Below, piece after piece: positions 1 to 23,025 of a stretch of DNA of 23,277 nucleotides. Under the pieces are notes generated by a model. It was not told the origin of the DNA. It made no database searches and was given only the letters and a program-made list of their open reading frames with translations. The position numbers and the translations under genes were made by a program. The stretch spans positions 4,012 to 27,288 of the forward strand of contig JAOXYC010224237.1 of NCBI GenBank assembly GCA_028565715.1. The letters run 5' to 3'. Each line of letters starts with the position of its first letter. The stretch's first letter is position 1. This stretch comes from Phoronis pallida (lineage: Eukaryota > Phoronida > Phoronidae).

Positions 1-240
1 CATTTCCATTTGCTCAGGGCCGTCTTTGGAATTCCACTTGTTACGTTTTTCATGCAGGAAGGTACGCGCGTCTTGGTTGTCAACAAGAACATTGGTAGAA
101 TCCAATCTTTTCTTCACATCCATTTCCATTTGCTCAGGGCCGTCTTTGGAATTCCACTTGTTACGTTTGTCATGTAGGAAGGTACGCGCGTCTTGGTGGT
201 CAGCAAGAACATTGGAAGAACGTAGTCTTGGCGGTAAACG
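1..240 (-). repeat. 120-bp in-frame tandem repeat (two units visible)
   Basis: Bases 1-120 and 121-240 are two copies of one unit. About 100 bp (1-100 against 121-220) differ at only five positions, after which the copies diverge. The period is exactly 40 codons, so the repeat duplicates one peptide-plus-spacer module of the minus-strand precursor. More units may lie beyond the window edge. Confidence 0.93.
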
Positions 241-348
241 TAATTCAAGTTGTTTGTCCGTGTCTTCCCCATTCACAACAGACAGCTCTGGAAATGAATT
301 AGATGTGTCTAAAATTGAAATAAAAACAACAATTGTTTTTAGCGACAT
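1..348 (-). CDS. Secreted multi-peptide precursor, 3' end beyond window
   Basis: An open frame of 116 codons runs from ATG at 348-346 to the window edge without a stop, so the gene is partial. Residues 1-18 look like a signal peptide (MSLK, then hydrophobic TIVVFISIL, then DTSNS). The proprotein carries KR at 61-62 and 101-102 and KKR at 79-81, typical furin/prohormone-convertase sites. Two nearly identical 40-residue units follow each other (about 45-76 and 85-116), each containing NVL, QDARTFLH and, after KR, NKWNSKDG. Cleavage would release about 16-residue Trp-containing peptides. The D-A-x-x-F-L core matches DANSFL/DANSFM in the MKL genes at 2920 and 4767, so I infer relatedness. No intron is evident here, unlike those genes, although an ATTTTAG at 317-311 could be an acceptor of an alternative model. 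A TATA box lies 33 bp upstream. Function is unknown: neuropeptide, defence or venom-like peptides all remain possible. Confidence 0.7.
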   Translation of the reverse strand, partial: MSLKTIVVFISILDTSNSFPELSVVNGEDTDKQLELRLPPRLRSSNVLADHQDARTFLHDKRNKWNSKDGPEQMEMDVKKRLDSTNVLVDNQDARTFLHEKRNKWNSKDGPEQMEM

Positions 349-360
349 GTTTCGACGTGT

Positions 361-415
361 ACGTCACGTCATTCTCAAGCTTTATAGAGGTACGTACTCA
401 TGTGGCGTCACGTTG
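361..415 (-). promoter_or_regulatory. Core promoter of the minus-strand precursor: TATA box and CRE-like motifs
   Basis: On the minus strand TATAAA lies at 386-381, placing transcription start near 355 and leaving a very short leader before ATG 348. Between the TATA box and the ATG, TGACGTGACGT (371-361) holds two TGACG half sites, and a further TGACG-type motif lies at about 403-411. TGACG is the half site of cAMP-response elements. The TATA box is seen directly; CRE function is inferred. Confidence 0.55.
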
Positions 416-429
416 GTGCCCAGGTAGGG

Positions 430-1380
430 AATTGTGCCATTTGTGGGTTAGAATTTGCCGTCTCTCTATTTCATTTAAACCTTTAAAACTAGATGTAGGT
501 AACTAAAGTGCTAAAAATACATGGTGAGCACTGGTGCCCACATGCTTTATGTGCCCGGTTTCTGGACACCAATGCCTGGTCCTCGCACCGAGTTTTCGCT
601 GAGTGAATACACCTCTTTAACTGAATGGCTGAATGCCAAGCATTGTGACTGATCATAAAAGCGGACAATTATGGGGGCTGATACCGATTGTATTCTGTGT
701 GAGCAACATTCACAAGCAAATATTCCTAGATGGCTATGACATCACGGAAGCTCTTGAAGGGTAGCAACATTTAATAAAAAAATGCAACTTTTTAAATAAC
801 ATTTGTTTTTATGAAACTGTCGACGAAATATCTGCCTGTGCCTTAAAAGCGACGATAGATACCCATCTTTTGAAATCGATTGTTGTTTTTTGGTCACATC
901 AAGATGATGGGTTTTATGAAGAAACATACCCTCATTTATTGTTGACAATTTTTTTCGAAAAAGTATTGGTCAAGGAAAATGTTTTAATTTAAACAGACAA
1001 CAGAACAAGGAGTAACTTGACTAAAAATTTAGAATTCAAACGGTGGCAATAATTTTTACCGTTTGGTAACATAGACCGCATATAGTATACCCTTTAAAAA
1101 TATCAAAACATTTCTGATATTAAATCTCAGAAAAATATGTTAACTTTCAGTTGAATTTTAATGGATACTAGTGTAGTTGCGATAATGGTTTTCTACGCAC
1201 CAAAGTAACACAGAGCTACCAGAACCAGGGCGCCAACACTGCGGAACAACATCATCCTAGGGAAGTTGGAGATATAATGAGACAGTATTACTTCGCCAAA
1301 GTGTCGGGCATTTTATATCAGCGGCCGGTTCAACGTGGCCTACCATCAGAAAGACAAATAAACCCGAGTCTGTCTCCGGG
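430..1380. other. Non-coding stretch
   Basis: Nothing convincing on either strand. Reading frames here are short, lack an ATG in good context or start with TTG, and show no domain. Composition is AT-rich with scattered poly-T runs. No signal-peptide exon with a matching splice donor was found here for the candidate exon at 1490. Confidence 0.5.
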
Positions 1381-1489
1381 GTTTATTCATAATTCTCTTG
1401 TGTCACCGATAAACATGTACGTTTGAAAGCAAGCAAAAATGAACATGTTGATATTGTGTCTATTTTTAAGGTGACGCCAGGGGATACAG

Positions 1490-1629
1490 TCAATTACAAA
1501 GAAACACAGACAGAACTAGGTCTAGACGCATTTCTGACAGAAATATGCCTAGACAAAAGAGCGTCAAAACGCTGGCAAAAATGCGGCAACGAGCTAAACG
1601 TACTTCTGTCAGAAGAGAGGCACGCGTGA
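1490..1629 (+). CDS. Possible orphan second exon of the peptide family
   Basis: An open frame ends at TGA 1627-1629. Just upstream, ACAG|TC at 1486-1491 is a potential 3' splice site that splits a GTC valine codon after its first base, the same phase-1 G|TC junction used by all three MKL genes. The 46 residues include LDAFLTE followed by LDKR and SKRW, resembling DANSFLTE plus dibasic sites in the gene at 2920. Two Cys residues are present, unlike the relatives. An ATTAAA lies at 1720-1725. No signal-peptide exon, donor or TATA box was found upstream, and the polypyrimidine tract before the acceptor is poor. It may be a decayed or distant member, or coincidence. Confidence 0.28.
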
Positions 1630-1639
1630 CATTCTGTCT

Positions 1640-2860
1640 GTTTTTTTGCAATATACTGTAAGTACGTTCACGCTTTCCTCGTGATCGTATTATAAAATGA
1701 TTGTGAAACGCATTATTTAATTAAATCCTTTTTTTAAAAGCGGCTGTTGTATCTCAGTTTCGTATGGGTTAGGTGCGGGCTCGGGGAAGAGACCCCGGGG
1801 TAGAGGCCCCGGGGTAGAGAAGGCTGATACGATGATTGGGAAGATGATGGGTTTCTACTCCTGGTGTATTGACGAAGATATATAACGGTCATTCACCAAC
1901 TCTTTACATCGATTGAATTGCATGATCCTATACACTTATCAAATTAGCTACATAATTCTAGAGTGGGCGCAATTTTTGGAGTAAACAAAACCGTTACCTG
2001 TAGCCGTAAGGTCTAATTGTTTGCAAATACTATTTAAGCACGTTTTAATGGGAAAATCGTCGAACTGATCATGAGCATTTGCACCTGTTTATTTGTAATG
2101 AAGTAAATATTGACTGAATTTCCAGTGTTTGAAACTTATAGTTTATAGACAATCTACGATAGTACGAATTTAACCGGGGAAAATGCTTGAAATAAAATAC
2201 AGAAGAATTTACATTTTGCAAAATGTGACATTCAATTATGAAAATCATATAACTATTTATTTACTTTCATATTAATGTTCGAGAAATAATGAGTTGATAG
2301 TTAGTTGTCACTAGGCCTATTACTGTGTCGTACACAGAAAATCATGCGAAGATGAAAGTGCTCCCTTTGTAAATTAGGCAACTAATAACTGTGTCAATTA
2401 CTAATTTCACATAATAAGAGTTGAAAAGTGGAATTTGGCTGAACTCTATTTATTTTCAACTTGTATCTGCGTACGTATCTGTTAATCAATGCATTGATGA
2501 GTCGACCTCAATGATGAAAGGGGTAACTTGTTTTTTTTTTTAGATATTGTCAACAACTTAATTTCTATAATGACGAGACCAAAAGTTAATTTTGTGTAAT
2601 CTGTTCAAAATGAATTTGCTCAATAATTTGTTCAAACGGGCAGACTCAATAATACTAATTTAGTAATTTTTGATTACATTAATTGTTGCTGAAATCGACT
2701 GCTGATTCGTGTTGAAACCTCAGAAGTTCCCGCCGTGTGTATAGTCTAATCATTGACATAGTTTGAATTATTTGTTGCAGATATGTGAATGCCTGTACAA
2801 AATCTAATCTTCCACGAAAGTGTTCCCCCGGAAATGACCATTTTGATAGCATCTAGGCTG
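1640..2860. other. Non-coding intergenic stretch
   Basis: No gene is visible. A short GC-rich patch at 1782-1818 has two copies of a CCCCGGGGTAGAG motif in tandem. The rest is AT-rich with frequent stops in all frames. It ends at the promoter of the gene starting at 2920. Confidence 0.5.
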
Positions 2861-2864
2861 CATA

Positions 2865-2877
2865 CAAATAAAAGATC
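2865..2877 (+). promoter_or_regulatory. TATA-like box of the MKL gene at 2920
   Basis: AAATAAAAG lies about 50 bp before the ATG. It is a weaker match to TATAAAA than the boxes of the two sister genes but sits at a comparable distance, so transcription would start near 2895-2900. Confidence 0.4.
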
Positions 2878-2919
2878 ACTGTGCAGTTGCGCAAAAACAT
2901 TCATTCCAATCATGAAATG

Positions 2920-3461
2920 ATGAAGTTGGCTCTTCTTGTGTTGCTGGTAGCGGCAATTTGCTGTTGTGGTAATAAGCTCTGCTAAATGTCTTAAACACTG
3001 ACATCAGAACATCTTATTATTTTGAAAATCATGATGACATTGTTTGAAAACTGTAAGTTGCCAAAATAAATAAAGTATATGGTTCAGCTATTGATTGAAA
3101 CTAATAAAAAAACTTTACAGATCGATAGAACTGAACTTAAAACAAAACACACTTGATTGAAACAAAGGAAATAAATTCATGATTGAAAATCACAGATACA
3201 GCTGGGATTGAATGAATTGAAATGTCGTTTAATTCAAACTTTATAATTTTGTTTTTCCATACTGTTTTAGTCACGAGCCGGGGAGTTCTTGATGACAGTT
3301 TTGTTAGCGTTGATAAGAGGGATGCCAACTCGTTCCTGACGGAAGATGATTTCGACGTCAGACGGGATTCTGGTGAACCATTATGGATAAGAGGTCCCAC
3401 CAACCAGCGACAGAAGCGTGGAGCAGCCTGGGAACAGCTGGAACTAGACTTCTGGGAATGA
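2920..3461 (+). CDS. Two-exon secreted peptide precursor (79 aa), MKL family member 1
   Basis: Exon 1 is 2920-2968, exon 2 is 3271-3461; the 302-bp intron is G|GTAATA...TTTTAG|TC, phase 1. Residues 1-16 are a strong signal peptide (MKL plus LLVLLVAAICCC). The proprotein has KR (about 29-30), RR (46-47) and RQKR (62-65), releasing predicted peptides beginning DANSFLTE, then DSGEPLWI, and a C-terminal 13-mer rich in Trp and acids. Signal exon, splice phase and the VLD-SFVS...KRDANSF block match the gene at 4767, which settles the start. The 3'UTR has AATTCAG at 3509 and ATTAAA at 3526-3531. A mini-ORF (ATG AAA TGA, 2912-2920) overlaps the start codon by one base. Extracellular or secretory-granule location is inferred; receptor or target is unknown. 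Confidence 0.8.
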
Positions 3462-3534
3462 AACTAGAACAAAACTCTTAAAAATGGAATTGAATTATTT
3501 GTGAATCTAATTCAGAGTAAAACTGATTAAATAT

Positions 3535-4286
3535 TTGTTCCAAAATGATATTTCAGTGTTGTATTGTGACTTGCATAATTGTTTAATCACAAAATGTATG
3601 CTTTTTGTGATGAATTCTAAAACACCTGTTATGCAAAATAGAAGACCTGGCTCCTTGTTTTTCTGTCTTTTCAATATTTATATATTTATTTCCATCATTT
3701 TTTCGCGGCTGTTGAAAATCTTGGCGCTTTACAAAAATGCTAATTATTATAAATTACAATAGTTTAAACGTTAAAAGCTATTTCAAGACATTAAATAAAC
3801 AGACACATTAAAAATCAAATGAAATTTAACCAACTGATCTGTGGATATTTACAAACTAAAGGAAAAAAATGAGCATTAAACCTTCAAGTTCAGTGGAGAT
3901 TGACAAATTTGAATAGGTAAGGTCACTCCACTGAGAAGGCAGGAGTAGCGTGCCCGAAAGTCTATGAACGAGGTTTACACACATTGGAGAAAGAACTTAC
4001 TAATGAATCGATAGCCCACAGATTACTTTACATTAGACAAATGAAGAAACCTTTTAAAGAGTGAAAGTTCGAATTCGAATTTGTTATGCCCAACCGCTAT
4101 TTAGTTTTTAATAAGACAATGACAATAATTTCGCCTCAAATTTTGCACATGGTATAAACATAGCATATCCACCCGATTGAACACCTAAATCGAAGATGGG
4201 GCCACTGATTTGACTCAACGCGGCATTGCAAACAATCACCATTGGTATAGGCCTACTGCCGATGGCCTCGGCATGAAATATGTCCC
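3535..4286. other. Intergenic stretch between family members 1 and 2
   Basis: No gene or recognisable element. It is AT-rich, with a long frame (3535-3762) that starts just after the poly(A) signal and has the low-complexity hydrophobic composition of random AT-rich sequence. It ends at the foldback element. Confidence 0.5.
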
Positions 4287-4649
4287 TTAACGATACTGTC
4301 TCCTCGTTGGTGAGGATCTGGGGTCAAAATTTAAATCAACTAGAAAATTTGTGTATGAGTCCTTTGATGAATATAATTAACCTGCATCATAGTCAAAAAA
4401 TTCAAAAAAAAATCTGTAAGGGGGTAAACTTGAGCTTTTTGTCCTAAAAAAGTGTAAATTTCGAAAACCTTGTCGGACAACAAGGTTTTTTGGATACAAA
4501 GATCTCAAATTTACCCCTTTACCGATTTTTTTGAATTTTTTGGCTATGACGCAGGTTAATTATATTCATCAAAGGACTCATACACAAAATTTCTAGTTGA
4601 TTTGAATTTAGACCCCAAATCCTCACCAACGAGGAGACAGTATCTTTAA
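4287..4649. mobile_element. Foldback/MITE-like element A, TTAA flanked
   Basis: The element at 4291-4645 is almost a perfect palindrome. The left arm (GATACTGTCTCCTCGTTGGT...) reappears inverted in the right arm over about 160 bp, with a short centre around CCTTGTCGGACAACAAGG. TTAA stands on both sides (4287-4290 and 4646-4649), as expected for a target-site duplication. There is no coding capacity. Three relatives occur at 4848, 17401 and 22668. TTAA targets are typical of piggyBac-type transposases; the assignment is inferred because the ends do not show the usual CCY start. It ends only 50 bp before the TATA box of the next peptide gene. Confidence 0.82.
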
Positions 4650-4699
4650 GTAAAGCGACCCCCCAGGGAACAATACGTCAACGGGGACGTTCTATCGGC

Positions 4700-4709
4700 T
4701 ATAAAAATA
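4700..4709 (+). promoter_or_regulatory. TATA box of the MKL gene at 4767
   Basis: TATAAAAATA in a GC-richer context, 67 bp before the preferred ATG (46 bp before an in-frame upstream ATG at 4746). Transcription would begin near 4730. Confidence 0.7.
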
Positions 4710-4766
4710 AGAACATCGAGCAGTTTCGTAGAAACATTCATCGAAATGTCTTCGACGTCAGACACT

Positions 4767-6035
4767 ATGAAGCTGGTATTTCTTGGGGTGTTGGTGGCTG
4801 CTATCTGCTGTTGTGGTAAGCTATGCGCGAGTTTTTCAATAGAATAGTTAAAGATACTCTCTCTGCGTTGGGTCCAAATTCAGCGTCACAACTCAAAACA
4901 ACTAGAGATTTTGTGTACGTGTCCTTTGTTGGATTTAACTTACTTGCATTAAAAAAAATCTGTAAGAGTGATTTGAGAGTTTTGTATCCGAAAAAGTCAA
5001 ACCTTAGTTTTTAGACTGTAGGTTTTTAATGGACACAAAGTTCTCAAATCACCCCTTTATCGTTTTTTGATTTTTTTTCTCAGCTGCAAGAGAGTTATGT
5101 TCAGCAAAGGACTCGTAGCCTTAACAAAACTTCTAGTTGCTTTGCGTTTTGACGCCGGATTTTGACCAACGCAGAGAGAGTATCTTTAAATGGTTTCTTC
5201 ATTTTTTAACGCCGTTAATCGTTTTGGATTAATTATAAATAAAACATCCTGATTTCCAATTCAAACACCGACAAACGAAGTTTTGCTTCTAAACTCTTAA
5301 AGGTTATTTCTCCATTACAACTTTCCTAGAAGTAGTAAATAGGCTGAATATTTTAATTTTGACCAAACATCATAACATTGAATGAATATTTCAATACATG
5401 AATAAGTAAATATGGGCTGATTCCAATAATCTATACCCTCACTTCTAGTGTAACATCTTTTTTGTTACTGTTCTGTTAATCTTCCGGAGATTGTTAAATT
5501 ACCATTGTCTCATTCCATTTCGTCATTTATATAAATGATCTTTTCCAACTCATTACAACTTATCTCAGCAACCGAGCTCGAAGCGTAACTTTAGCAAATA
5601 TATAACCGCGATAAAAAGTCTTTCTTGCAACATATACAATTGGATACTACAAAATTGAAACGAATTTATCAAATTAAATTGAAAAAACAAAACGAGTATT
5701 ATAAAAAAATACTAGGCTAGTTAATGGAGAGAATGAGGGACAAAATTGTTTAGTTGGAAATTTGATTTGACTGTTTATATATCGTTTCAGTCAGGAGCCA
5801 GGGAGTTCTTGACAGTTTCGTAAGCCTTGCTAAGAGAGATGCCAACTCGTTCATGACAGAAGGTGACTATATCGACGCCAGACGAGATAATGAAGTATGG
5901 ATTGCTAGCAACAACCCGCGTCAGAAGCGTCAGAGACGGGCTAATGAAGTATGGATTGCTAGCACCAACCCGCGTCAGAAGCGTCAGATGAAACAAAACC
6001 GATATGAAGAATTCCCGGAAGAATTATGGGGCTGA
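4767..6035 (+). CDS. Two-exon secreted multi-peptide precursor (97 aa), MKL family member 2
   Basis: Exon 1 is 4767-4815, exon 2 is 5791-6035; the 975-bp phase-1 intron is G|GTAAGC...TTTCAG|TC and contains foldback element B. Residues 1-16 form the signal peptide (MKL, hydrophobic core, AAICCC). An in-frame ATG at 4746 would add seven residues; the later ATG aligns with both sister genes. The proprotein has KR before DANSFMTE, RR, and two tandem copies of a unit reading NEVWIAS-N/T-NPRQKRQ, then a C-terminal Tyr/Glu/Pro-rich tail ending ELWG. Convertase cleavage would give two near-identical 13-mers ending RQ. The poly(A) signal AATAAA lies at 6074-6079, after AATTCAG at 6052. The duplicated peptide strongly suggests a neuropeptide-like or other multi-copy peptide precursor. 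Its biological role is not recognised. Confidence 0.82.
4848..5189. mobile_element. Foldback/MITE-like element B inside an intron
   Basis: Element 4852-5185 is flanked by TTAA at 4848-4851 and 5186-5189. The ends read AGATACTCTCTCTGCGTTGG and its inverted copy. Internal arms include CAACTAGA and TCCTTTG motifs shared with element A. It differs from A at the ends (CTCTCTGCG instead of GTCTCCTCG), so it belongs to another subfamily that also includes the copy at 17401. It sits wholly in the intron of the gene at 4767-6035. Confidence 0.82.
5889..5996 (+). repeat. 54-bp in-frame tandem duplication within the precursor
   Basis: Units 5889-5942 and 5943-5996 are each 18 codons. The first 48 bases differ at one position (AAC versus ACC, giving Asn versus Thr). 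The unit codes for one Trp-containing peptide plus its RQKR cleavage site, so the duplication doubles the peptide dose. Confidence 0.93.
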
Positions 6036-6079
6036 ATTCTTTGTGCACCTAAATTCAGAAAAAAAAACTGAGAAATAAA

Positions 6080-6773
6080 TCACTTAATTATGTAGCAATG
6101 TTGTTCATTTTATGAAAACACGACTGCATAATGTTTGTGTAGTTGGGCAGCAGTCCTTCAACGCATTCTAAAATTGTTCTCTTGATTTAGTTACTTGTTT
6201 GGCCACTAGGGCGCATATGTCATCTAAATTTGTATGTACCGGGTACTGATTTTCACACTTCCTTTGTTATTTCTGTCATGCGAATTTGTGTACAAATTTT
6301 GGCGCACTTTTGGGATTTTACCATTGTGTATCCTGAAATGAACAGAGCTTGTTCGAAGTTTCGGAATATATGTATAACTTTAAATCAACACATCTTTTAC
6401 TGTTGATACTGACATCACTGATATGGATGGCAACGTTCGGATTACTATTATGGCAACTACCAGCTGAACAAAAACGCATACTCAGAACATTTGAGAAAAA
6501 ACCGCCTGAAATTAGAAAAAAGTAAGATCAGTAGTGTTTTCAATAACACTTATTTAAATGAAAGACTGCATAATGATAAACTTTTTTATTAAGATTTCCA
6601 AAATTACTTTAAAATATTTTTTTTTATAAGTGTGTATCATCAGAAGAGTACATTGAACCATTTTTGAAAAGTTCATTTTGAGACGTTGTTTATACCCACC
6701 TGAAAAAGACACGTTTTCGATACAAAATCGCATTACACGACATGGATAGACCACTCTAATAGATCCAAAATCT
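6080..6773. other. Non-coding stretch after family member 2
   Basis: No gene recognised. The reading frame at 6554-6754 (minus) is AT-rich, without a domain or a good start. It ends at the next inverted-repeat element. Confidence 0.45.
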
Positions 6774-6775
6774 GA

Positions 6776-7422
6776 TATATGTTATGCACAAAAAGTTATG
6801 CCCCCTAGATTTTTTCAATTGTTTTCCATGAAATTCATCGGTCACAGTAACACAATATATTCATGGTTGGTTCAACTCATTCCCAACATTTTAGTGTGTA
6901 AATCGTATCAAGGCAATTAGATTAAAGATTAGTTAAAAATGATTTAACCTGGTATCTATCATATTCTTGATCAAACTCTATGGGTGGTGTAAAATCAAAA
7001 GCCACAAAATGCTAATTTTTAATGCCACCACGATTTTTGAATAAGGACTAATTCTGTAAATGCGAAGGAATTTTTTACTGATATGATATGGGTTTTAAAC
7101 GTTCCCTAATCGGCTTTCTGGTTTTGAAGAAATCTAAATCCAAACTTTTTTTCAAAAAAACAAGCTTTTGACTCAAAACTCTTATCACGTGATCAAGGGA
7201 ATGTGAAAAAACTAAACAGTTGTTTGACTTTTGTTTTTGAACCACATGATTTTATTAACCTTTTTGGCGCATTCATTTTCAACCGACTGTATCATGATTG
7301 GTATCGAAATGATTGTATTGAATTTATCTTTTCAACCATGTATCACTGGTTTTCAATTTATCGATCTTTCAGCTAGTTATTCAAAAACCTAAAGGGGGGC
7401 GTTACTTTTTGTGTGTAGTATA
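6776..7422. mobile_element. Degenerate inverted-repeat element flanked by TATA/TA
   Basis: The left end (about 6776-6825) carries CACAAAAAGTTATGCCCCC then a TAGATTTTTT stretch. The right end read on the minus strand carries ACACAAAAAGTAACGCCCCC then TTTAGGTTTTTG. Outside both is TATA (6776-6779 and 7419-7422), fitting a TA target duplication as made by Tc1/mariner-type transposases. Weaker inverted similarity (ATGGTTG motifs and beyond) continues inwards, so the whole may be a decayed foldback element. No coding capacity. Exact ends are uncertain by a few bases. Confidence 0.6.
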
Positions 7423-7980
7423 TTAAGTATTTTAGTTTCAATTTAGAATGGCCCACCACCAAAATATTGGACAGCAGGGGGTTTCTAATTCAGAGTGCGT
7501 GAGATGTTAAAATTAGTCATGATACTTGAATTGGAAATCTTTACAGAAAACCTGGACATTATTTTACTGCATAGACATTGCCCCAGAGCACACTTATATG
7601 TTTAATTACAAATTATCCTGAAAACAATTAAAATTGTTCCCAGGGATATCAGGACTCGTCCGCGTCTGAAATGGTTACATTAAAGCCGAATTTTACAACA
7701 AAATTCAAACACTTTCAAACGTCAAAACATCTTGTTAATATAGCGCGCCTTCTTATAAGGAGTTAAATTTGATGACTCCATGTAATTCCACCAAAATGAT
7801 AAAACGTAAAAAAATACCAATGTTGGCATCTACCCATCCTGAAAACAAGCTTTAAAACTAACAGATTTGGACATTGTAGTGTTGAATATAGAAGATGTCC
7901 CGAGTCATTCCAGATTGTATGCTTGTTTTTTTTGCTGTTTATAGGGGATTGTCTCCCTTTTTATATCATATCAGTAAAAA
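7072..7980. repeat. Perfect 18-bp inverted pair, ~870 bp apart
   Basis: TTTTTACTGATATGATAT at 7072-7089 has its exact reverse complement at 7963-7980. One arm lies inside the 6776-7422 element and the other outside it. This may mark a second nested or interrupted element. Confidence 0.55.
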
Positions 7981-8336
7981 GTTGGTTATAGAATGCAGTC
8001 ACGTTTGTGATGTCTAGAGGCCATAATAGTGAAATTTAAAAAAAAAAGTTGTTTGGATGAGACGAATTTGTCAACATTCATCTGACGAAAATTAATCTGC
8101 TACAGCTTGTTAAGTCCTCTGGCAAATATTTGCAAATATTTACAGAAAAGGAAATCTTTGTAATTAATATAACTATACGCAATTATTCATGTGAACTGAA
8201 TAATAAATCATTAATAGGAAAAAAAAACGAAAGCATTTTAGAATAAAAAATCTCTATAATAACCGAGATTGTTTGTTTGTCTCGGCGTAAACGTTCCCGC
8301 GGAATGGATTGCCGGTAATTGACAGAACATTGACGG
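7423..8336. other. Non-coding stretch upstream of family member 3
   Basis: No gene seen apart from the right arm of the 18-bp inverted pair. AT-rich with homopolymer runs. The frame at 8183-8368 (minus) runs through the next gene's promoter and is not credible. Confidence 0.45.
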
Positions 8337-8344
8337 TATAAAAC
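8337..8344 (+). promoter_or_regulatory. TATA box of the MKL gene at 8420
   Basis: TATAAAAC after GACGG, 83 bp before the ATG; predicted transcription start near 8367. Confidence 0.65.
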
Positions 8345-8419
8345 AAGTCCATGAGCGGCTGCATGCAACCATTCATACCAACCCTAGATCCATCTCCACT
8401 CAAGACTTAAACGGAAACT

Positions 8420-8991
8420 ATGAAGCTGGTGCTCCTTGTGTTGTTGGTGGCGACCGTATGTTACGGTAAGTAATGTGTTTTTACGCATCACAAGTTTTGA
8501 CAAATGTTTGACTATAGTACTAGGATTTTTAAAAACGACACTTTTAAATTTGGCAAATATTATAGCAGTGTCCGAAACATTTACATTTGTATTTTTGTAA
8601 GCAGTTTATCATTGTGCTAAAAAACGAGCTGATTTGCTGTAGGTAAAAACATTCGATCCAACACACAACTGATATAGGAACAACGAGTGGGTAGACGAGA
8701 TTAAAAATGTATATTTTAAATACAAGACTAAAACAAAATAAGACAATTTGAGGTCCAAACAAAGTAGAAATGTTATCCGATTAATTATCGAAATATTATT
8801 ACATTCTTTCAGTCTCCAGTCGGGCAGTTTCTGACGGTACTTATGCAAGCGTTGATGATTTTGACGCCAGAGGCGCTGAGGATTCAGATGATATTTACGT
8901 GGACGATGTGGCGAGCGACCCGCGCCAGAAGCGAGCTCATTGGGAATCATCACCAACCAACATCTGGACGGGCGTACCTAGCTGGAAATAA
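8420..8991 (+). CDS. Two-exon secreted peptide precursor (74 aa), MKL family member 3
   Basis: Exon 1 is 8420-8465, exon 2 is 8813-8991; the 347-bp phase-1 intron is G|GTAAGT...TTTCAG|TC. Residues 1-15 are the signal peptide (MKLVLLVLLVATVCY), one codon shorter than in the sisters. The pro-region is strongly acidic (about half Asp/Glu between 29 and 48) and ends DPRQKR, the same RQKR site as the sister genes. Cleavage would free a single 18-residue C-terminal peptide with three Trp, starting AHWESS. The KRDANSF block of the other two is absent; only a DFDAR remnant is seen. AATAAA overlaps the stop (8987-8992) and a second is at 9030-9035, preceded by the shared AATTCAG at 9007. This is the most diverged of the three plus-strand genes. 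Antimicrobial, venom and signalling roles are all possible. Confidence 0.78.
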
Positions 8992-9035
8992 ACGTATTTA
9001 CAAAGAAATTCAGAACTGTAAAACTGAAAAATAAA
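8987..9035 (+). terminator. Poly(A) signals of family member 3
   Basis: AATAAA at 8987-8992 overlaps the TAA stop. A second AATAAA at 9030-9035 follows AATTCAG...AAACTG, the arrangement also found in the 3' ends of the genes at 2920 and 4767. The second is therefore the likelier functional signal. Confidence 0.6.
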
Positions 9036-9039
9036 GCTA

Positions 9040-10540
9040 TCGTAATAAAATTTATATTTCCTTTTTCATGTGCACACTTATAGGAATTGAATTTCATTTT
9101 CCCATTTTTGCCGCTATAACATGTTCAGGCGACAGTTCAACACAGTTTTAAACAAAGAATATGTCAACATTACCAGATTGGGCTTACAACTGACACCCGA
9201 AGAAATCATTTTTTTTTATCAAAACTGATGAAACTTGCCACGGAGATACAAAATTGGTCACTTACATAAAAAACTGCTACTTTTGCTATCAAAAACAGGA
9301 AAAAAACGAAGTGCAGTGATTCCTTTTTTGGAAGATTTAAGCAAAACAGATTTGAACTGAAAATTTTATATGGTTGCACACAAGATGAGTTGTCTGCCGG
9401 GATGAAACAAAACCTAATGTCAGAAAATGGTTTTTATTTGATTTGTCAGATTACAAAAATTGATCAAAATTAAGAAACAATCTTTCTGAGTTATTTTGTT
9501 TAAATAATTTTATACGATAAAATCCTGATCACTGGCGGCTAAAATGCAATCGAATGATAAAAATACGTAGAATACAGGGATTTTGGCGGGTCTATTAATC
9601 AATTACCAGCGATAATAGTCAACAAAGTTGAATACAAATATCATATTCAATAACTATAATCAACACGTTGAAACCGCTACAACACCTTTGTATTGTGAAA
9701 TATTGAAAATATATTACTAAACATTGTTTATCAAATCACACCAAAACAAATGGCAAACAATAGCCATTCACTGATATTATTTATTCTACCCACATCACAA
9801 TCCATATATGTTATATGAAACAGGTGTAAAATCAATGTATCTAAAGGCGATTAGGGGTATGAGGTTTGAGACTGTTTCCGGAGGCTGTCAGGACACGTTA
9901 TACAGGGGAGTTGCGGGATATTGAGTCACTGACCGTGAGTTAACTGTTCAATTGTCTTTCTCTACGTACACGAAGGTCTGCTTCAAAAAGTTGTTGTTAT
10001 TGTAAGCACCGCGTAAATAATTACTTAAAGTAATTACAAATTGAATACATTATTTTGCCTACCTAGGACGTATAGCAACCAAGGTCTACATGTAGGCTGT
10101 CATGTGACCTGTAATCTGACTACGGGAAGGGTTGAGTTTTTTTACTTTAATCTTTGATACATCTACACAGTTACGGAGGTACACAATGGTGACAGTTTTG
10201 AAGGAGGGGTCATGAAGGTTGTTATGTTTGTCTATTTTTACAAAATTTGAGGTCTTTACATAGCTTACAGGTGAAGATCATTTTCATGGATTATGCTAGC
10301 TCTGATAACTCCTGTCTCACGTCTTCAAATTTGAAATAAAAATGGAACAGTAGATATGCGGTAACGTAATATTCCAAAGAGTTCACGTATGTTATTGCTG
10401 TGTACACGTAGTTTATCGGCATATTCTAAATCAGTTTTTTGTTCCCTGATGAGTTTCTAAATTTGAATAATCCGATATAAGCAATGTAAAACAGATGTTT
10501 ATGAGAATAGAATATGAATATGATAAAACACCGTAGTGCT
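9040..10540. other. AT-rich non-coding stretch
   Basis: I see no gene, repeat or RNA structure that I can defend in these 1.5 kb. All frames are short and contain frequent stops. Confidence 0.5.
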
Positions 10541-12347: not shown

Positions 12348-12698
12348 ATGGCAACGACACCCATTGACCAATCCGAGATGTCGACGCAGGGGTTCGCAAC
12401 GGAAGACCCCCTAGCTCAACATAGACGACTATTAGCCATACCTTACGTACTTTGGACCCTCGCCATTGTCATTTTTCTTGTAATCTCATTCCTGCTTTTT
12501 CGATACCGTAAGAAGCTTGATAAGATTGAGAAACTAGAACTTCTAGAAGTAAAAATTCTTAACACAAATGACTTGAATATCCACAAAAAATCTCAAAGGA
12601 TAGGAGGAGGTGCGTGGCGGCCATTTGGAACTAACGTTGTCATGCATGGTATATTTTTAGGAGCACACAAAGGAGGACGAAGAAACTCGCTACCATAA
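12348..12698 (+). CDS. Small single-pass membrane protein (116 aa as read through)
   Basis: The ATG sits in a near-ideal context (ATCACCATGG) 60 bp downstream of a strong 3' splice site (polypyrimidine then TTTTCAG|ACG, exon starting at 12288), so a 5'UTR exon lies upstream. Residues 1-29 are polar. Residues 30-51 form one hydrophobic helix (IPYVLWTLAIVIFLVISFLLF), followed at once by RYRKK and a charged, possibly coiled KLDKIEKLELLEV segment. This predicts an N-out, C-in topology without a cleaved signal. After residue 87 the frame meets a good donor (GAG|GTGCGT, 12610). Splicing there to AACAG|TC at 12889 keeps phase and gives a different 121-residue protein. I do not recognise the family. 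Confidence 0.55.
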   Translation: MATTPIDQSEMSTQGFATEDPLAQHRRLLAIPYVLWTLAIVIFLVISFLLFRYRKKLDKIEKLELLEVKILNTNDLNIHKKSQRIGGGAWRPFGTNVVMHGIFLGAHKGGRRNSLP

Positions 12699-12992: not shown

Positions 12993-13857
12993 TGTTACGA
13001 AACATTCGTTGTTGATACAAGTACCAATTGCCAAAAGTAGTTTCGTTCACGAAGTCTTGTAAAGCGTAAAAGCATTGATTTTGTTTAAGCAGTCTGTCTT
13101 GTTGATTTTTTTCAAATCTGGATTCTATACTGGTTGAACATTTTTTTTAACTTTCAAAAAATCAAAAATGCTGAAACGTATTTTTTTGAGAAAAATTTGA
13201 TCGAATAAATTTGGCCAAAAAACAAGTTTTGTCAACATGTACAAAATCCAGATTCTAACATTTTTTTTGTTTGAATGCTTTTAAAAAAGCGTAGCATATT
13301 GTCTGCGCTCTAAGTAGTGCCGGTGGCATTCTCGTAGGTTCGATCCTATGGGAAAGACTGATTTTTCAGTAGGTCTTTATACCGTTTAGTCAAAAAAGTG
13401 CGATTTCTTCACTGTCATTGAGATATTTATTTGTAGTTGTCACTTTTTATATTTGATGGTTCAAATTGTTGCACAATTATGTGTTTGTTAACATAAAATA
13501 TATTTTTCATTCACAGTCGTTCTATTTAAAAAAAACAAACACGACAGAAGTCACACGTACATAAAGTAAAAAAAACACTAAAATTCTAGTAAAATACACT
13601 ATGAGTGTTTCAGATAAATGCATTTGCCACTGTCAGATTATGTAATCTCAACTGTAAACGGCACAAACAGTCTACTTTAACATAAGTTGTTGCCTAAATC
13701 AGTTAGATTTTAAGTTCATCGCCCGTGTTGATGCAACAACTCACTGCCAATCACCCAGTTATCACAAAACCACTAAAAATGTAAACAATTCAAAAACATG
13801 AAAAAGTTGTATAAATTGTTTCTTACTTCTTAGTCAAGAAATTTAATGAGCTACAGC
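12993..13857. other. Convergent intergenic stretch
   Basis: Lies between the ends of a plus-strand and a minus-strand gene. AT-rich with many T runs. AATCTGGATT near 13115 has an inverted partner AATCCAGATT near 13245. Possible minus-strand poly(A) signals for the coiled-coil gene are ATTAAA at 13847-13842, just past its stop, and AATAAA at 13431-13426. Confidence 0.45.
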
Positions 13858-15180
13858 TCATGAACTTCTTCCCCTTTCTATGGCATCCACGCGTGCCATC
13901 AAAGCATCCAACTTTCGTGAAACGTTGTGCAAACTTTGCGTCAACTGAACATCATGCTGAAACGTACGGACCGCAGTTTGACGGTGAGTTTCTAAACCAT
14001 TTTCAGCCACGCGTTTCAAATATTCCTGCTTCAGTTCAACTTTAGTGATATTTTCGGCAATTTTCTGAAATGACACCTTTTGTAAATGTTGAGTGTGTCT
14101 CAAGACGTCCATGCTCGATTTCAACACATTGGTTGCGTTTCTTATTTGCCGTGCGTTTTTATTCATTTCATAACGATTTCGAACTAAGCATGAAAGTAAC
14201 AAATTCATCCGTCTCTGCAATACGGCGATATCATGTGCATTTGCGGTCAACGTTGAGTTGGAGTTCCCGAGAAGCTGAGCGTTCCCTTTGACCACTGTGG
14301 ACAGATTTTCTAACTTTTGGTCAAATGTTTCAATGGTGATCCTCACATTCGAATCCACCCTTGCGATTCCCTCCTCAATACTTTTGATTCCGTCATTTAT
14401 TCTTTCATCAAATATGGTTTTCATTTGGTAGGTTAAGTTGGACAATTCTGGGTCAATGTTGCGCTTCATTTCAGATAAATCACTGGTCAAATTCTGTAAC
14501 CAATCGTTTTGATCTTGTTGAACTTCGACAATTTTATGTAACTCTTTCAGAGTTCCATTATTCACGAATTTCAATTTTTTGTTTTCATCAGACAACAAAC
14601 TCATCCTTTGCTCGATATGACGGACGATTTCAGTTCCATTTATATAAGCTTGACTTTTCCTTTTAACTTCATCACCAATGACACCAACCTTTGCCTCCAG
14701 AATTTCCAGCGTTCGATTGTACTTCTCCATAAAGTTTGGAGTCGATACAGGCATACCACCACGCGTTCTCGACGTCAGTTTTAGAATAAGATTACTAAAA
14801 GTTCTATTCGTTTTAATCCCAGAGTTGTAATTTTGGTTTGGATCAACATACTCGCTTACGTTTTGATCTGACAGTCTAAAACGTGAAGCACCAAATTTTC
14901 GCGCGTGATCTGGTTGTTCTCGTTCCTCCAGTAGTTCCCGAAGTCGTCTGCTTTCGACTTCCGCTCTTTCCATACGGTTTTCTAATTCTGCAACACGAAC
15001 TATGTGAGACTCGATTAACACTTCCAACTGTTTTGACACTTTTTCAGAAATCTTTTCTTTCAATACATTAAATATGTATTGCGGGTCAACATGGTTTGCT
15101 AGTCTTGAAATGTCTCCCGTCATCTGACATTTAGAAACACTCAAATTCACAAATAATACAAAGATCACTGGTAAAGCCAT
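13858..15180 (-). CDS. Secreted, heavily N-glycosylated coiled-coil protein (440 aa)
   Basis: The open frame reaches 15363, but a minus-strand TATA box at 15304-15297 puts transcription start near 15270, so the first usable ATGs are 15195 and 15180. I choose 15180 because AAGATGG is the better context and the following MALPVIFVLFVNLSVSKCQ is a classic signal peptide. The rest is almost entirely charged, helical sequence: an RVAELENRMERAEVESRR stretch near the start and many Leu-spaced segments to a C-terminal RKLDALMARVDAIERG. I count twelve N-X-S/T sequons in the mature part (for example NVS, NRT, NGT, NLT, NIT). Only one Cys remains (LLSCLV), which could link chains. No globular domain such as fibrinogen or C1q follows. 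It resembles the stalk of multimerising extracellular proteins, but I cannot name a family. The coding part has no intron. Confidence 0.75.
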   Translation of the reverse strand: MALPVIFVLFVNLSVSKCQMTGDISRLANHVDPQYIFNVLKEKISEKVSKQLEVLIESHIVRVAELENRMERAEVESRRLRELLEEREQPDHARKFGASRFRLSDQNVSEYVDPNQNYNSGIKTNRTFSNLILKLTSRTRGGMPVSTPNFMEKYNRTLEILEAKVGVIGDEVKRKSQAYINGTEIVRHIEQRMSLLSDENKKLKFVNNGTLKELHKIVEVQQDQNDWLQNLTSDLSEMKRNIDPELSNLTYQMKTIFDERINDGIKSIEEGIARVDSNVRITIETFDQKLENLSTVVKGNAQLLGNSNSTLTANAHDIAVLQRRMNLLLSCLVRNRYEMNKNARQIRNATNVLKSSMDVLRHTQHLQKVSFQKIAENITKVELKQEYLKRVAENGLETHRQTAVRTFQHDVQLTQSLHNVSRKLDALMARVDAIERGRSS

Positions 15181-17400: not shown

Positions 17401-17530
17401 TTAAAGATACTCTCTCTGCGTTGGTTCAAATCCGTCGTCAAAAAGCAAATCAACTAGAAATTTTGTGTAGTACGAGTCCTTTGATGAACATAACATACTT
17501 GCATCCGAGTCATAAACATTGCAATTTGAG
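17401..17530. mobile_element. Half copy of the TTAA foldback element (C)
   Basis: TTAA at 17401-17404 followed by AGATACTCTCTCTGCGTTGG, identical to element B's left end, then CAACTAGA, TTTTGTGTA and GAGTCCTTTGATGAACATAA motifs of the same arm. Similarity fades near 17530 and no inverted right arm follows. The copy is either truncated or has lost one arm. Confidence 0.75.
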
Positions 17531-18627: not shown

Positions 18628-20448
18628 TCATTTCAATGATTCTAGTTTGACAATATAACTTCTCAAGTGAGCAATTTCATCAGCTTGTGCCTCAAGCCTA
18701 CTTGTCAATTTTGCAATTATCTCATCCTTGGTGAGGAAGATTTCGCACTCCAAAACCTCCTTTGCGGTGGGTCGCAATTTTGGGTCAGCATTGACCATCG
18801 CCAAAATTGCTTTCGATATTTGAGGCCACCTAACTTGAAATTGTTCAGGGACGACACCAGAGCGTAATTTAGTTAATGTTTGAGCTCTCTCCATTTCTGT
18901 TAGAAATGGGTGAAACATTTCAAATGTTGTAATACCAATACTAAAGATGTCCGTCTTTGAGTCGTAATCATGACCGCTCAGTTGCTCTGGTGCTCCGTAA
19001 ATACTTGTACCAACCCCAGTTGTATAGTCTTCAACATCAAACAGATCTTCAAACTGAAAGTCAACCAGAGGCATGACATTCACCGTACTGTCCTCTAGAA
19101 TGTCATCTCTGGCTAGACCAAAATCACCGATCTTAATTGTGAAATCGTCACCGTACAGAAATATATTGCGAGGCTTGATGTCCCTGTGTATCAAGCCTTG
19201 GTTGTGAATATACTCAGTTCCCCATAGTATTTGTTTCAGAGCCTTCAAGGCTTGAATTTCATTCACACATTCAAATAAATCCCCTGTATTGCATTGTGAA
19301 TTTTGTCGATGAATCCAATCTTTCAGTGTTGAGGTACACAGCTGCATTTGAATGTAGAGCACTGTCTTACTGTCCTGCAGTAAGTCCCCAGTGTACCAAT
19401 AGGAGTCAGCACTGCACTGGCCTCCTGTGTTCTTGTGATCACAGCTTAAGCTTTCACGTTTTGTAGATTTACCATTACAATCTTGAACATGATTCAAAGA
19501 ATGAGCACACTGCGCTTTATTCACACTTTTGAGCAACACATTGTCCCCGCCTGCATTCGCTTCTGAGTGTTGAAATATGATATCACTGTCATCACCATTT
19601 TTGTTTTCAAGGCTTCGACTTCTATTGTGCATACTTCCAACAGGCCGTACCTTGGCGGGGGCGATGCATTCTTGTTGCAGCCAAGCGGCATTATATCCAA
19701 CAACATTTGGATGATTCAAATTGGCAAGAACGCGCACTTCTCGTAATATTTTCATCCACATCTCTGGATTGACTTGACCTAATTGTATTTTCTTAATAGC
19801 GTACAAGCACCCATCAAGTTTGTGCCTCGCTTTATAAACGCTTCCGAAGCCACCCCGGCCAAGACACTTCAGTTCAATGAATTCCTGCCGATATCTTGAT
19901 GCATTCATGTCAAACACGTCAGCAATTTTGAACCCGGGTTGCTTATGACTTATTCTCGGTTGAAACATAATCGCTAATCTTTCTTTTGTTGACATCAACT
20001 TTAGATAACTCCTATCTTTGTGATTTTCATGAACGGTAAGTCTAGCAGAATCCAACATAACAGTGAATACTTTCTTGTAATGGCTTCGGATCGTTTCAAG
20101 CTCGTCAACATAACAAAGTGGAGACATGACTTTGAGCTTTGCTAAGTGATTACAGATCGCTTTGAATAGCTCATCTTTCATGGATGGGTCTGGTTCATAT
20201 ATTGAACACAAATGTTCTAGCAACGATACCATTAACAGATGACTTGGAACATGTTTACTCGGAATAGTCCTCAGCGCACCGGCTCTGTGATCATGAGACG
20301 CCGACTCGCTAATGTTGCTGTACACAGAAGCATCAGATTCATCAAAATCTGATAGTGTTCCGCTTATTTCTGCAATATTGAATCCCGACTCCAGTCCTCT
20401 TGGTGGAGGAATGCGCGGAAACTTCGGTCTATTAAAGTTGTTCATCAT
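18628..20448 (-). CDS. EIF2AK1: Heme-regulated eIF2-alpha kinase (HRI), intronless
   Basis: HRI phosphorylates the alpha subunit of eIF2 in the cytosol and so represses translation during heme deficiency, oxidative or mitochondrial stress. The frame opens at 20520; I prefer the ATG pair at 20448/20445 (A at -3), giving 606 residues. Numbered from 20520 the 630-residue frame shows the HRI N-terminal block VSLLEHLCSIYEP (98-110), glycine loop GRGGFGSVY (221-229), catalytic Lys243 (AIKK), Glu261, a Cys/His/Ser-rich kinase insert (about 282-385), HRDIKPRN (445-452), DFG (466-468), the activation segment with GVGTSIYGAPEQ (502-513) and a C-terminal coiled tail. All catalytic residues are present, so it looks functional. 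Length matches vertebrate HRI. The vertebrate gene has many introns; this one has none in its coding region, so a retrocopy or intron loss is possible. Confidence 0.95.
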   Translation of the reverse strand: MMNNFNRPKFPRIPPPRGLESGFNIAEISGTLSDFDESDASVYSNISESASHDHRAGALRTIPSKHVPSHLLMVSLLEHLCSIYEPDPSMKDELFKAICNHLAKLKVMSPLCYVDELETIRSHYKKVFTVMLDSARLTVHENHKDRSYLKLMSTKERLAIMFQPRISHKQPGFKIADVFDMNASRYRQEFIELKCLGRGGFGSVYKARHKLDGCLYAIKKIQLGQVNPEMWMKILREVRVLANLNHPNVVGYNAAWLQQECIAPAKVRPVGSMHNRSRSLENKNGDDSDIIFQHSEANAGGDNVLLKSVNKAQCAHSLNHVQDCNGKSTKRESLSCDHKNTGGQCSADSYWYTGDLLQDSKTVLYIQMQLCTSTLKDWIHRQNSQCNTGDLFECVNEIQALKALKQILWGTEYIHNQGLIHRDIKPRNIFLYGDDFTIKIGDFGLARDDILEDSTVNVMPLVDFQFEDLFDVEDYTTGVGTSIYGAPEQLSGHDYDSKTDIFSIGITTFEMFHPFLTEMERAQTLTKLRSGVVPEQFQVRWPQISKAILAMVNADPKLRPTAKEVLECEIFLTKDEIIAKLTSRLEAQADEIAHLRSYIVKLESLK

Positions 20449-20587
20449 TTTAAAATCTTGGACTAAATACACAACACGCTGAAAGCTTATGATGACCTCA
20501 TAGTTCCAACCAGTCACCACTGCTGTCCAGTTTGCAGGACTAGGTCGACTTGGAAGTAGGGTGCCCGACGCCGACGGTCATTGTTGA

Positions 20588-22667: not shown

Positions 22668-23025
22668 CTAAAGATACTGTCTCCTCGTTGGTCCCAATCT
22701 GGCGTCAAATCGCAAATCAACTAGAAATGTTGTGTATGAGTCCCTTGTTGAACATAATTTACTTGCATCTGAGTAAAAAAAAATCAAAAGGGTGATTTGA
22801 GAGCTTTTGTGTCCCGGATTTTAACCTACTATAAGAGTGGAAAGACACTTTCTTCGGATAACAAGCTCTCAAATAACCCCTTACAGATTTTTTTTGAATG
22901 TTTTGACCCGGGGTTTTGACTCAGGTGCAAGTTAGTTATGTTCATCAAATGACTCATACACATAACTTCTAGTTGATTTGAATTTTGACGCCACATCGGG
23001 ACCAACGAGGAGACAGTATCTTCAA
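22668..23025. mobile_element. Foldback/MITE-like element D
   Basis: Element 22672-23021 has ends AGATACTGTCTCCTCGTTGG and the exact inverse, the same end type as element A. Flanks are CTAA and TCAA, decayed versions of TTAA. Arms share CAACTAGA and GAGTC(C)TTTG motifs with the other copies, with a centre near 22825-22850. Any reading frame here is only the translation of the palindrome. Confidence 0.8.

Follow-up and report, generated by a model that had tools for sequence, protein, structure and literature searches.

A small tandem cluster of putative convertase-processed peptide genes in the phoronid Phoronis pallida

We analyzed a stretch of 23,277 nucleotides from the phoronid Phoronis pallida (NCBI GenBank assembly GCA_028565715.1, contig JAOXYC010224237.1, positions 4,012 to 27,288 of the forward strand; hereinafter the window, whose numbering is used throughout) and found in its left part three short plus-strand genes, g1 (2920–3461), g2 (4767–6035) and g3 (8420–8991), each of two exons, which by their sequences are old tandem paralogs. 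Their products are predicted to be secreted precursors, from which convertases would release linear, cysteine-free peptides with a shared aromatic motif at the C-terminus. A fourth gene, gm, lies on the minus strand at the left edge of the window and appears to follow the same plan. An earlier reading made from the letters alone (hereinafter the sequence-only reading) had described an unrecognized cluster of secreted, convertase-type precursors, and this description stands within the limits of our searches, which returned no Pfam family and no homologues of g2 or gm.

Structure of the plus-strand genes

Read without splicing, g1, g2 and g3 run into a stop after 21, 26 and 17 residues, respectively, and introns are therefore needed. 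GT..AG borders at 2968/3271, 4815/5791 and 8465/8813, as proposed by the sequence-only reading, yield precursors of 79, 97 and 74 residues, with a phase-1 G|TC junction in all three genes; their signal exons comprise 16, 16 and 15 whole codons, in keeping with the common signal exon of 15–16 codons that had been claimed. The first exons encode hydrophobic stretches of 15–18 residues, the Kyte–Doolittle (KD) maximum over nine residues being 3.13 in g2, 3.71 in g3 and 3.02 in gm; the N-terminal signal peptide of g1 was assigned by alignment to the other precursors. A scan of both strands for signal exons (an ATG, a hydrophobic stretch and a phase-1 donor) missed g1, whose donor is GTAATA. The exon 2 frame is free of internal stops in all four genes, gm included. 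TATAAA is found upstream of g2, g3 and gm, with only a degenerate form in g1, and CATTCAT, which occurs seven times in the window counting both strands, lies at −22, −32 and −50 from the ATG of g1, g2 and g3. We consider the two-exon structure of these three genes very probably real.

Members of a foldback (inverted-repeat) element family are found at 4286–4650, 4850–5189, 17401–17516 and 22669–23025. One of them, whose arms measure 125 nt (94%), stops some 50 bases short of the TATA box of g2, and a diverged copy lies in the g2 intron; the g2 signal exon is thus bracketed by two of them.

Paralogy and selection

The exon 2 peptides align with scores of 118 (g1–g2), 71 (g1–g3) and 39 (g2–g3) as compared to shuffle means of 25.5, 25.1 and 23.8, and 0, 0 and 20 of 2000 shuffles, respectively, reach these scores. 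The 3′ untranslated regions (UTRs) match in all three gene pairs (1 of 1000 shuffles each), and the promoters of g1 and g2 are alike (0 of 1000), with weaker likeness in g1–g3 (40 of 1000) and g2–g3 (27 of 1000). The intron ends, compared pairwise, show no match (133 to 733 of 1000 shuffles). The matching signal exons, exon 2 peptides and 3′ UTRs, taken with the unalignable introns, therefore point to old duplicates in which the signal exon and the 3′ end have persisted, as has the promoter to some extent.

Taking the pairs in the order g1–g2, g1–g3 and g2–g3, nonsynonymous divergence (dN) in the signal exon is 0.12, 0.13 and 0.20 against a synonymous divergence (dS) of 1.25, 1.97 and 0.92; in the propeptide dN is 0.12, 0.67 and 0.96 and dS 0.54, 0.85 and 0.64; in the mature part dN is 0.81, 0.46 and 0.85, with dS saturated in the first two pairs and 1.13 in the third. 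Over the entire coding part dS exceeds dN in all three pairs. The signal exon is thus under purifying selection, as is the propeptide of g1–g2. The propeptide of g3 is loose, and the mature part in the pairs with g3 is no looser than the propeptide; the excess of dN over dS in the g2–g3 propeptide involves only about 20 synonymous sites and is not to be trusted at such a size and alignment quality. The mature part of g1–g2 is under looser constraint, with no evidence of positive selection. Hence, of the rapid change that the sequence-only reading saw in the mature peptides, the contrast within g1–g2 remains, but it does not extend to g3.

Predicted peptides

Predicted cuts at RQKR, RR and KR would release DSGEPLWIRGPTNQ and GAAWEQLELDFWE from g1, DNEVWIASNNP, ANEVWIASTNP and QMKQNRYEEFPEELWG from g2, and AHWESSPTNIWTGVPSWK from g3; candidate released forms also include GAAWEQLELDFW(E), QNRYEEFPEELW (as an amide or with its G) and AHWESSPTNIWTGVPSW(K). 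The two internal W peptides of g2, each with its RQKR, form a 54-nt tandem repeat. A block of 11 residues, aligned without gaps and of the form x-x-[WY]-E-x5-[FLI]-W, is common to the three C-terminal peptides (AAWEQLELDFW, NRYEEFPEELW and AHWESSPTNIW in g1, g2 and g3); it scores 63, a value reached by none of 3000 shuffles (mean 9.7, maximum 54). When the C-terminal peptides are compared pairwise over nine residues, g1–g3 and g2–g3 stand out as well (5 and 3 of 3000 shuffles). Among the internal parts, WI is common to g1 and g2 and PRQKR to g2 and g3. The claim that the mature peptides scarcely resemble one another is accordingly largely withdrawn.

RQKR is present in all three plus-strand genes, as had been noted from the sequence, and its placing ahead of the C-terminal block recurs, at a distance of 1, 4 and 0 residues (g1, g2, g3), with the RQKR of g2 falling in a different column of the MAFFT alignment from those of g1 and g3. 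Tryptophan makes up 9 of the 203 post-signal residues of g1–g3 (binomial p 1.5e-3 at an assumed 1.3%). None of the four precursors, gm included, has a cysteine after the signal, and there is no cysteine framework; the net charge, scored over whole post-signal parts, is −5, +3, −6 and −3 (g1, g2, g3, gm), so that three of the four are not cationic. The precursors of g1, g2 and g3 end in FWE, LWG and SWK, and only that of g2 could be amidated.

The minus-strand gene gm

The sequence-only reading had started a minus-strand precursor at 348, a placement that we abandon for a better model. The supposed start, MSLKTIVVFISIL, is the translation of the reverse-strand tract ...TTGTTTTTATTTCAATTTTAG|AC; on the minus strand the tract TTGTTGTTTTTATTTCAATTTTAG has the form of a typical 3′ splice site and is followed by ACACATCT in phase 1, so that the start at 348(−) is probably part of an intron's polypyrimidine tract. 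The signal exon is placed instead at 1255–1201(−), and gm likely consists of 1255–1201 joined to 308–1 on the minus strand, with two exons and a phase-1 junction as in g1–g3. The signal-exon scan returned nine rows at six places, namely g2, g3, 1255–1201(−) and others starting at 13623, 15195 and 15360(−). We estimate that, with three other places passing in 46.5 kb of strand, a chance match in the kilobase upstream of gm would arise about once in 15 cases; exon 1 of gm is therefore likely rather than shown. The gene is cut at the window edge, the first 4011 bases of the 27,288-base contig reading N, and a 1458-residue open frame at this place was rejected as an artefact of those N bases.

A false hydrophobic start like that in gm also precedes exon 2 of g1 (MSFNSNFIILFFHTVLV.., open reading frame (ORF) 3222–3461). 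At both 3222–3461(+) and 348–308(−), a polypyrimidine tract before a 3′ splice site, read together with an in-frame ATG, mimics a signal peptide, and small secreted genes can be misread in this way when annotation goes by ORFs.

Of 35 codons compared between the two units of gm exon 2, 7 differ, every one of them within spacer codons 1–19; NKWNSKDGPEQMEM is encoded by the same 14 codons in both units. Whether gm is of the same gene family as g1–g3, as the sequence-only reading had it, or an unrelated neighboring multicopy precursor whose DAxxFL is a coincidence, we regard as equally balanced; the plan and the position agree, and the sequence likeness is marginal. The shared two-exon, phase-1 plan, the TATA box and the place beside the cluster favor kinship, as do comparisons of both units with g1, g2 and g3, whose scores are reached by 12, 319 and 38 of 2000 shuffles; with one unit, the corresponding counts are 164, 1149 and 1046 of 2000, and CATTCAT was not found in the 120 bases before the gm ATG, both of which favor a separate origin. 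The D-A-x-x-F-L block that had been proposed as common to gm and the plus-strand genes is exact only in g1, is altered to DANSFM in g2 and is absent from g3.

Table 1. Positions of the gene parts of g1, g2, g3 and gm in the window
Feature	Positions	Strand	Description
g1 core promoter and 5′ UTR	2863..2919	+	degenerate TATA-like TACAAATAAAAG at 2863; CATTCAT at 2898
g1 exon 1	2920..2968	+	signal peptide MKLALLVLLVAAICCC; phase-1 donor
g1 exon 2	3271..3461	+	propeptide ..DKRDANSFLTEDDFDVRR; predicted peptide DSGEPLWIRGPTNQ(RQKR); C-terminal peptide GAAWEQLELDFWE; stop
g1 conserved 3′ UTR block	3509..3535	+	AATTCAGA...; ATTAAA at 3526
g2 core promoter and 5′ UTR	4700..4766	+	TATAAAAATA at 4700; CATTCAT at 4735; in-frame upstream ATG at 4746
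g2 exon 1	4767..4815	+	signal peptide MKLVFLGVLVAAICCC; phase-1 donor
g2 exon 2	5791..6035	+	propeptide; DNEVWIASNNP and ANEVWIASTNP, each followed by RQKR; C-terminal peptide QMKQNRYEEFPEELWG; stop
g2 conserved 3′ UTR block	6052..6079	+	AATAAA at 6074
g3 core promoter and 5′ UTR	8337..8419	+	TATAAAACAA at 8337; CATTCAT at 8370
g3 exon 1	8420..8465	+	signal peptide MKLVLLVLLVATVCY; phase-1 donor
g3 exon 2	8813..8991	+	acidic propeptide with SDPRQKR at its end; C-terminal peptide AHWESSPTNIWTGVPSWK; stop
g3 conserved 3′ UTR block	9007..9049	+	AATAAA at 9030 and 9044
gm TATAAA	1312..1317	−	62 bases upstream of the gm ATG
gm exon 1 (new, likely)	1201..1255	−	MMLFRSVGALVLVALCYF(G); phase-1 donor G|GTGCGT; passes the signal-exon scan
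gm intron (predicted)	309..1200	−	3′ end TTTTTATTTCAATTTTAG
gm exon 2, open at the left edge of the window	1..308	−	two 40-residue units: spacer ..VLxDxQDARTFLHxKR and predicted peptide NKWNSKDGPEQMEM(DV)

Searches for relatives

No homologues of g2 or gm were found at E up to 10 among 5.8 billion proteins, annotated lophotrochozoans included; this search covered g2 and gm, not g1 or g3, and its silence is the weaker for needing shared five-residue words and annotated short proteins. Pfam gave no family above the cut-off for the four precursors (gm being scanned without its new exon 1). A PDB search with gm, one gm unit and g1 returned nothing above noise, the single unit drawing only two vinculin-type chains at E 0.5–0.6, and Rfam had no match in the window. 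Further copies of exon 2 of g1, g2 or g3 or of gm were absent outside the window from the 11.7 Mb in 933 contigs that were searched, which probably represent a partial genome. A candidate extra exon 2 at 1490–1627(+) (LDAFLTEICLDKRASKRW..) was rejected: 268, 912 and 223 of 2000 shuffles reach its scores against g1, g2 and g3, and the scan has no plus-strand signal exon upstream of it. Searching the literature for the peptide strings gave no relevant match among titles and the beginnings of abstracts; no match to a named peptide family was found, and an unnamed entry could exist in the supplementary lists of PMC8557429 and PMC6425005.

Functional interpretation and alternatives

We propose that g1–g3 are tandemly arranged members of one small prepropeptide gene family, in each of which a signal exon is joined in phase 1 to a propeptide and peptide exon. 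The precursor would enter the secretory pathway, where furin/proprotein convertase (PC)-type enzymes would cut at RQKR, RR and KR and carboxypeptidases would trim the cut ends, releasing linear cysteine-free peptides that would act extracellularly, their likeliest role being that of local or neuroendocrine signals for a receptor reading the paired aromatic residues; gm would release repeated copies of a different peptide, NKWNSKDGPEQMEM(DV). As a whole, we give this explanation an even chance of being right, and the signaling role by itself slightly less, though signals appear more likely than toxins or antimicrobials. By kind, the precursors come closest to lophotrochozoan proneuropeptides, which in the consulted parts of PMC6425005 and PMC8557429 likewise combine a signal peptide, basic cleavage sites and short, sometimes repeated peptides; unlike these, the present precursors have hardly any amidation sites and are dominated by RQKR. 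According to the part of PMC10501145 that was consulted, signaling peptides keep the mature part and vary elsewhere, a pattern stated for orthologs, and the identity of NKWNSKDGPEQMEM beside a varying gm spacer fits it.

Several observations weigh against the proposed explanation. The mature part of g1–g2 is more variable than the rest, with a dN about seven times as high as in the signal and propeptide; this is the opposite of the pattern in PMC10501145 and more like that of toxins or effectors, though paralogs are compared here, dS is saturated and the g3 pairs lack the contrast. The C-terminal pair g1–g2 is not notable over nine residues (352 of 3000 shuffles), and the length of the 11-residue block was picked after the peptides had been seen. 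The number of basic pairs lies within chance (reached by 399, 383, 2072 and 1245 of 5000 shuffles in g1, g2, g3 and gm), and no amidation site is present save for the final Gly of g2.

The foremost alternative, which we hold to be unlikely but well short of negligible, is that these are gland or epithelial effector peptides (defense, mucus, adhesive or deterrent) with the same processing and bulk secretion. This reading would accommodate the TATA promoters, the RQKR sites of furin type and the weakly constrained mature parts, and TATAAA does lie at a suitable distance in three of the four genes as compared to 1189 of 20000 random sites; the mature part of g1–g2 is less constrained than its signal and propeptide, though this does not hold in the g3 pairs. 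The missing cysteines, a charge that is not consistently positive, the C-terminal motif kept in common and the lack of extra copies in the 11.7 Mb searched speak against it. Conotoxin-type superfamilies combine a conserved signal and propeptide with a variable mature part. The constraint contrast along the g1–g2 precursors, and only these, is of this type, but g1–g3 lack cysteines, are few in copy number and still share a mature block.

By motif, the nearest named family is Wamide/myoinhibitory peptide (MIP)/allatostatin B (PMC7270403, PMC4307165), with which g1–g3 share an aromatic pair seven residues apart and a W near the C-terminus. The peptides could thus be divergent relatives acting without amidation at MIP/sex-peptide-type receptors, as does sex peptide, which according to the consulted part of PMC7270403 has a W pair, is unamidated and acts at the MIP receptor. 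W-x7-W in g1 and g3 and the amidatable Y-x7-W-G in g2 agree with this. We nonetheless deem such a relationship improbable: Wamides, as the consulted parts of these papers describe them, are amidated and come from repetitive precursors, but here there is one C-terminal copy per precursor, the first aromatic residue is followed by Glu in g1–g3, and FWE (g1) and IWTGVPSWK (g3) cannot yield a W-amide by ordinary processing. Finally, that the genes are chance reading frames or pseudogenes, as their short exons and the 41 ORFs of at least 60 residues in the window, many of them similar in length, might suggest, is the least probable alternative, given the matching 3′ UTRs and signal exons, the excess of dS over dN in all three pairs and the four stop-free exon 2 frames.

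If the genes are expressed, they would add a peptide family unmatched in the searched databases, with defined peptides and a gene anatomy nearly complete from promoter to 3′ UTR. In these paralogs the 3′ end and the signal exon are retained, and the peptides to be released vary about a constant W/Y-E..W frame. Nothing established is overturned by these genes alone.

A possible carboxylation site in gm

The gm spacers hold hydrophobic-x5-Ala-x3-Leu just before a Glu-bearing peptide, which recalls the vitamin K-dependent precursors; the known recognition sites conserve F, A and L at this spacing, as given in the consulted part of PMC4537219. They differ from these in that the Arg of gm is one residue short, L replaces F and there is no Gla domain. 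The pattern was set after seeing gm; when the part of gm through its first unit is shuffled, the core followed by a basic pair arises in 33 of 5000 shuffles and the core alone in 400 of 5000. F31, H34 and L41 of FIX are reported contacts (PMC12589487, in part), and at their spacing the first gm unit has L, H and L and the second L, N and L. Pfam at E up to 10 finds no Gla domain (PF00594) in the four precursors; a search of the P. pallida assembly for PF00594 was empty, as it was in all 14 control genomes. The carboxylase (PF05090) was not found in the 11.7 Mb, a likely partial genome whose exons were searched singly, and 3 of the 14 controls were positive.

It is conceivable, if very improbable, that each peptide copy of gm has its own gamma-carboxylation site, VLxDxQDARTFLHxKR docking the carboxylase and the Glu of NKWNSKDGPEQMEM being carboxylated before the convertase cut. 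The consulted part of PMC4537219 states that multiple recognition sequences within one multi-modular protein are without precedent, and a repeated carboxylase recognition site would, if true, be new. Gamma-carboxylation of g1–g3 was rejected, the recognition pattern being absent from all three.

Other features of the window and the assembly

An uninterrupted 607-residue frame at 18631–20451(−) with Pkinase and HRI2_3H matches codes for EIF2AK1 (HRI), the heme-regulated eIF2-alpha kinase, and may represent a retrocopy or a gene without introns. The best 120 of its 1113 matches are headed by Lingula anatina (47% over 41% of the query); the annelid Owenia and the chiton Liolophura come next, with hemichordates, amphioxus and fishes lower down. 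Taken with the two-stranded gene arrangement of the mitochondrial contig described below, this order makes a lophotrochozoan source probable. A 439-residue frame at 13861–15177(−) starts near a signal-like stretch and is coiled-coil-like by eye, and a 116-residue frame at 12348–12698(+) has, by eye, one membrane-spanning stretch; neither has a Pfam family above the cut-off.

The same assembly contains a 16,147-base mitochondrial contig (C671) with genes on both strands, of which cox1 was identified by Pfam and the others were named by reading their translations. The order is cox3 nad3 nad2 cox1 cox2 atp8 (+), nad5 atp6 (−), nad6 (+), nad4 nad4L cob nad1 (−); atp6 thus adjoins nad5 on the minus strand. 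The part of PMC2728741 that was consulted describes such a mitochondrial inversion in molluscs and phoronids, further changed in entoprocts. In the orders given for Nacellidae (PMC9322768) and a solenogaster (PMC11488289), as far as the consulted parts go, atp6 lies on the plus strand, unlike in C671.

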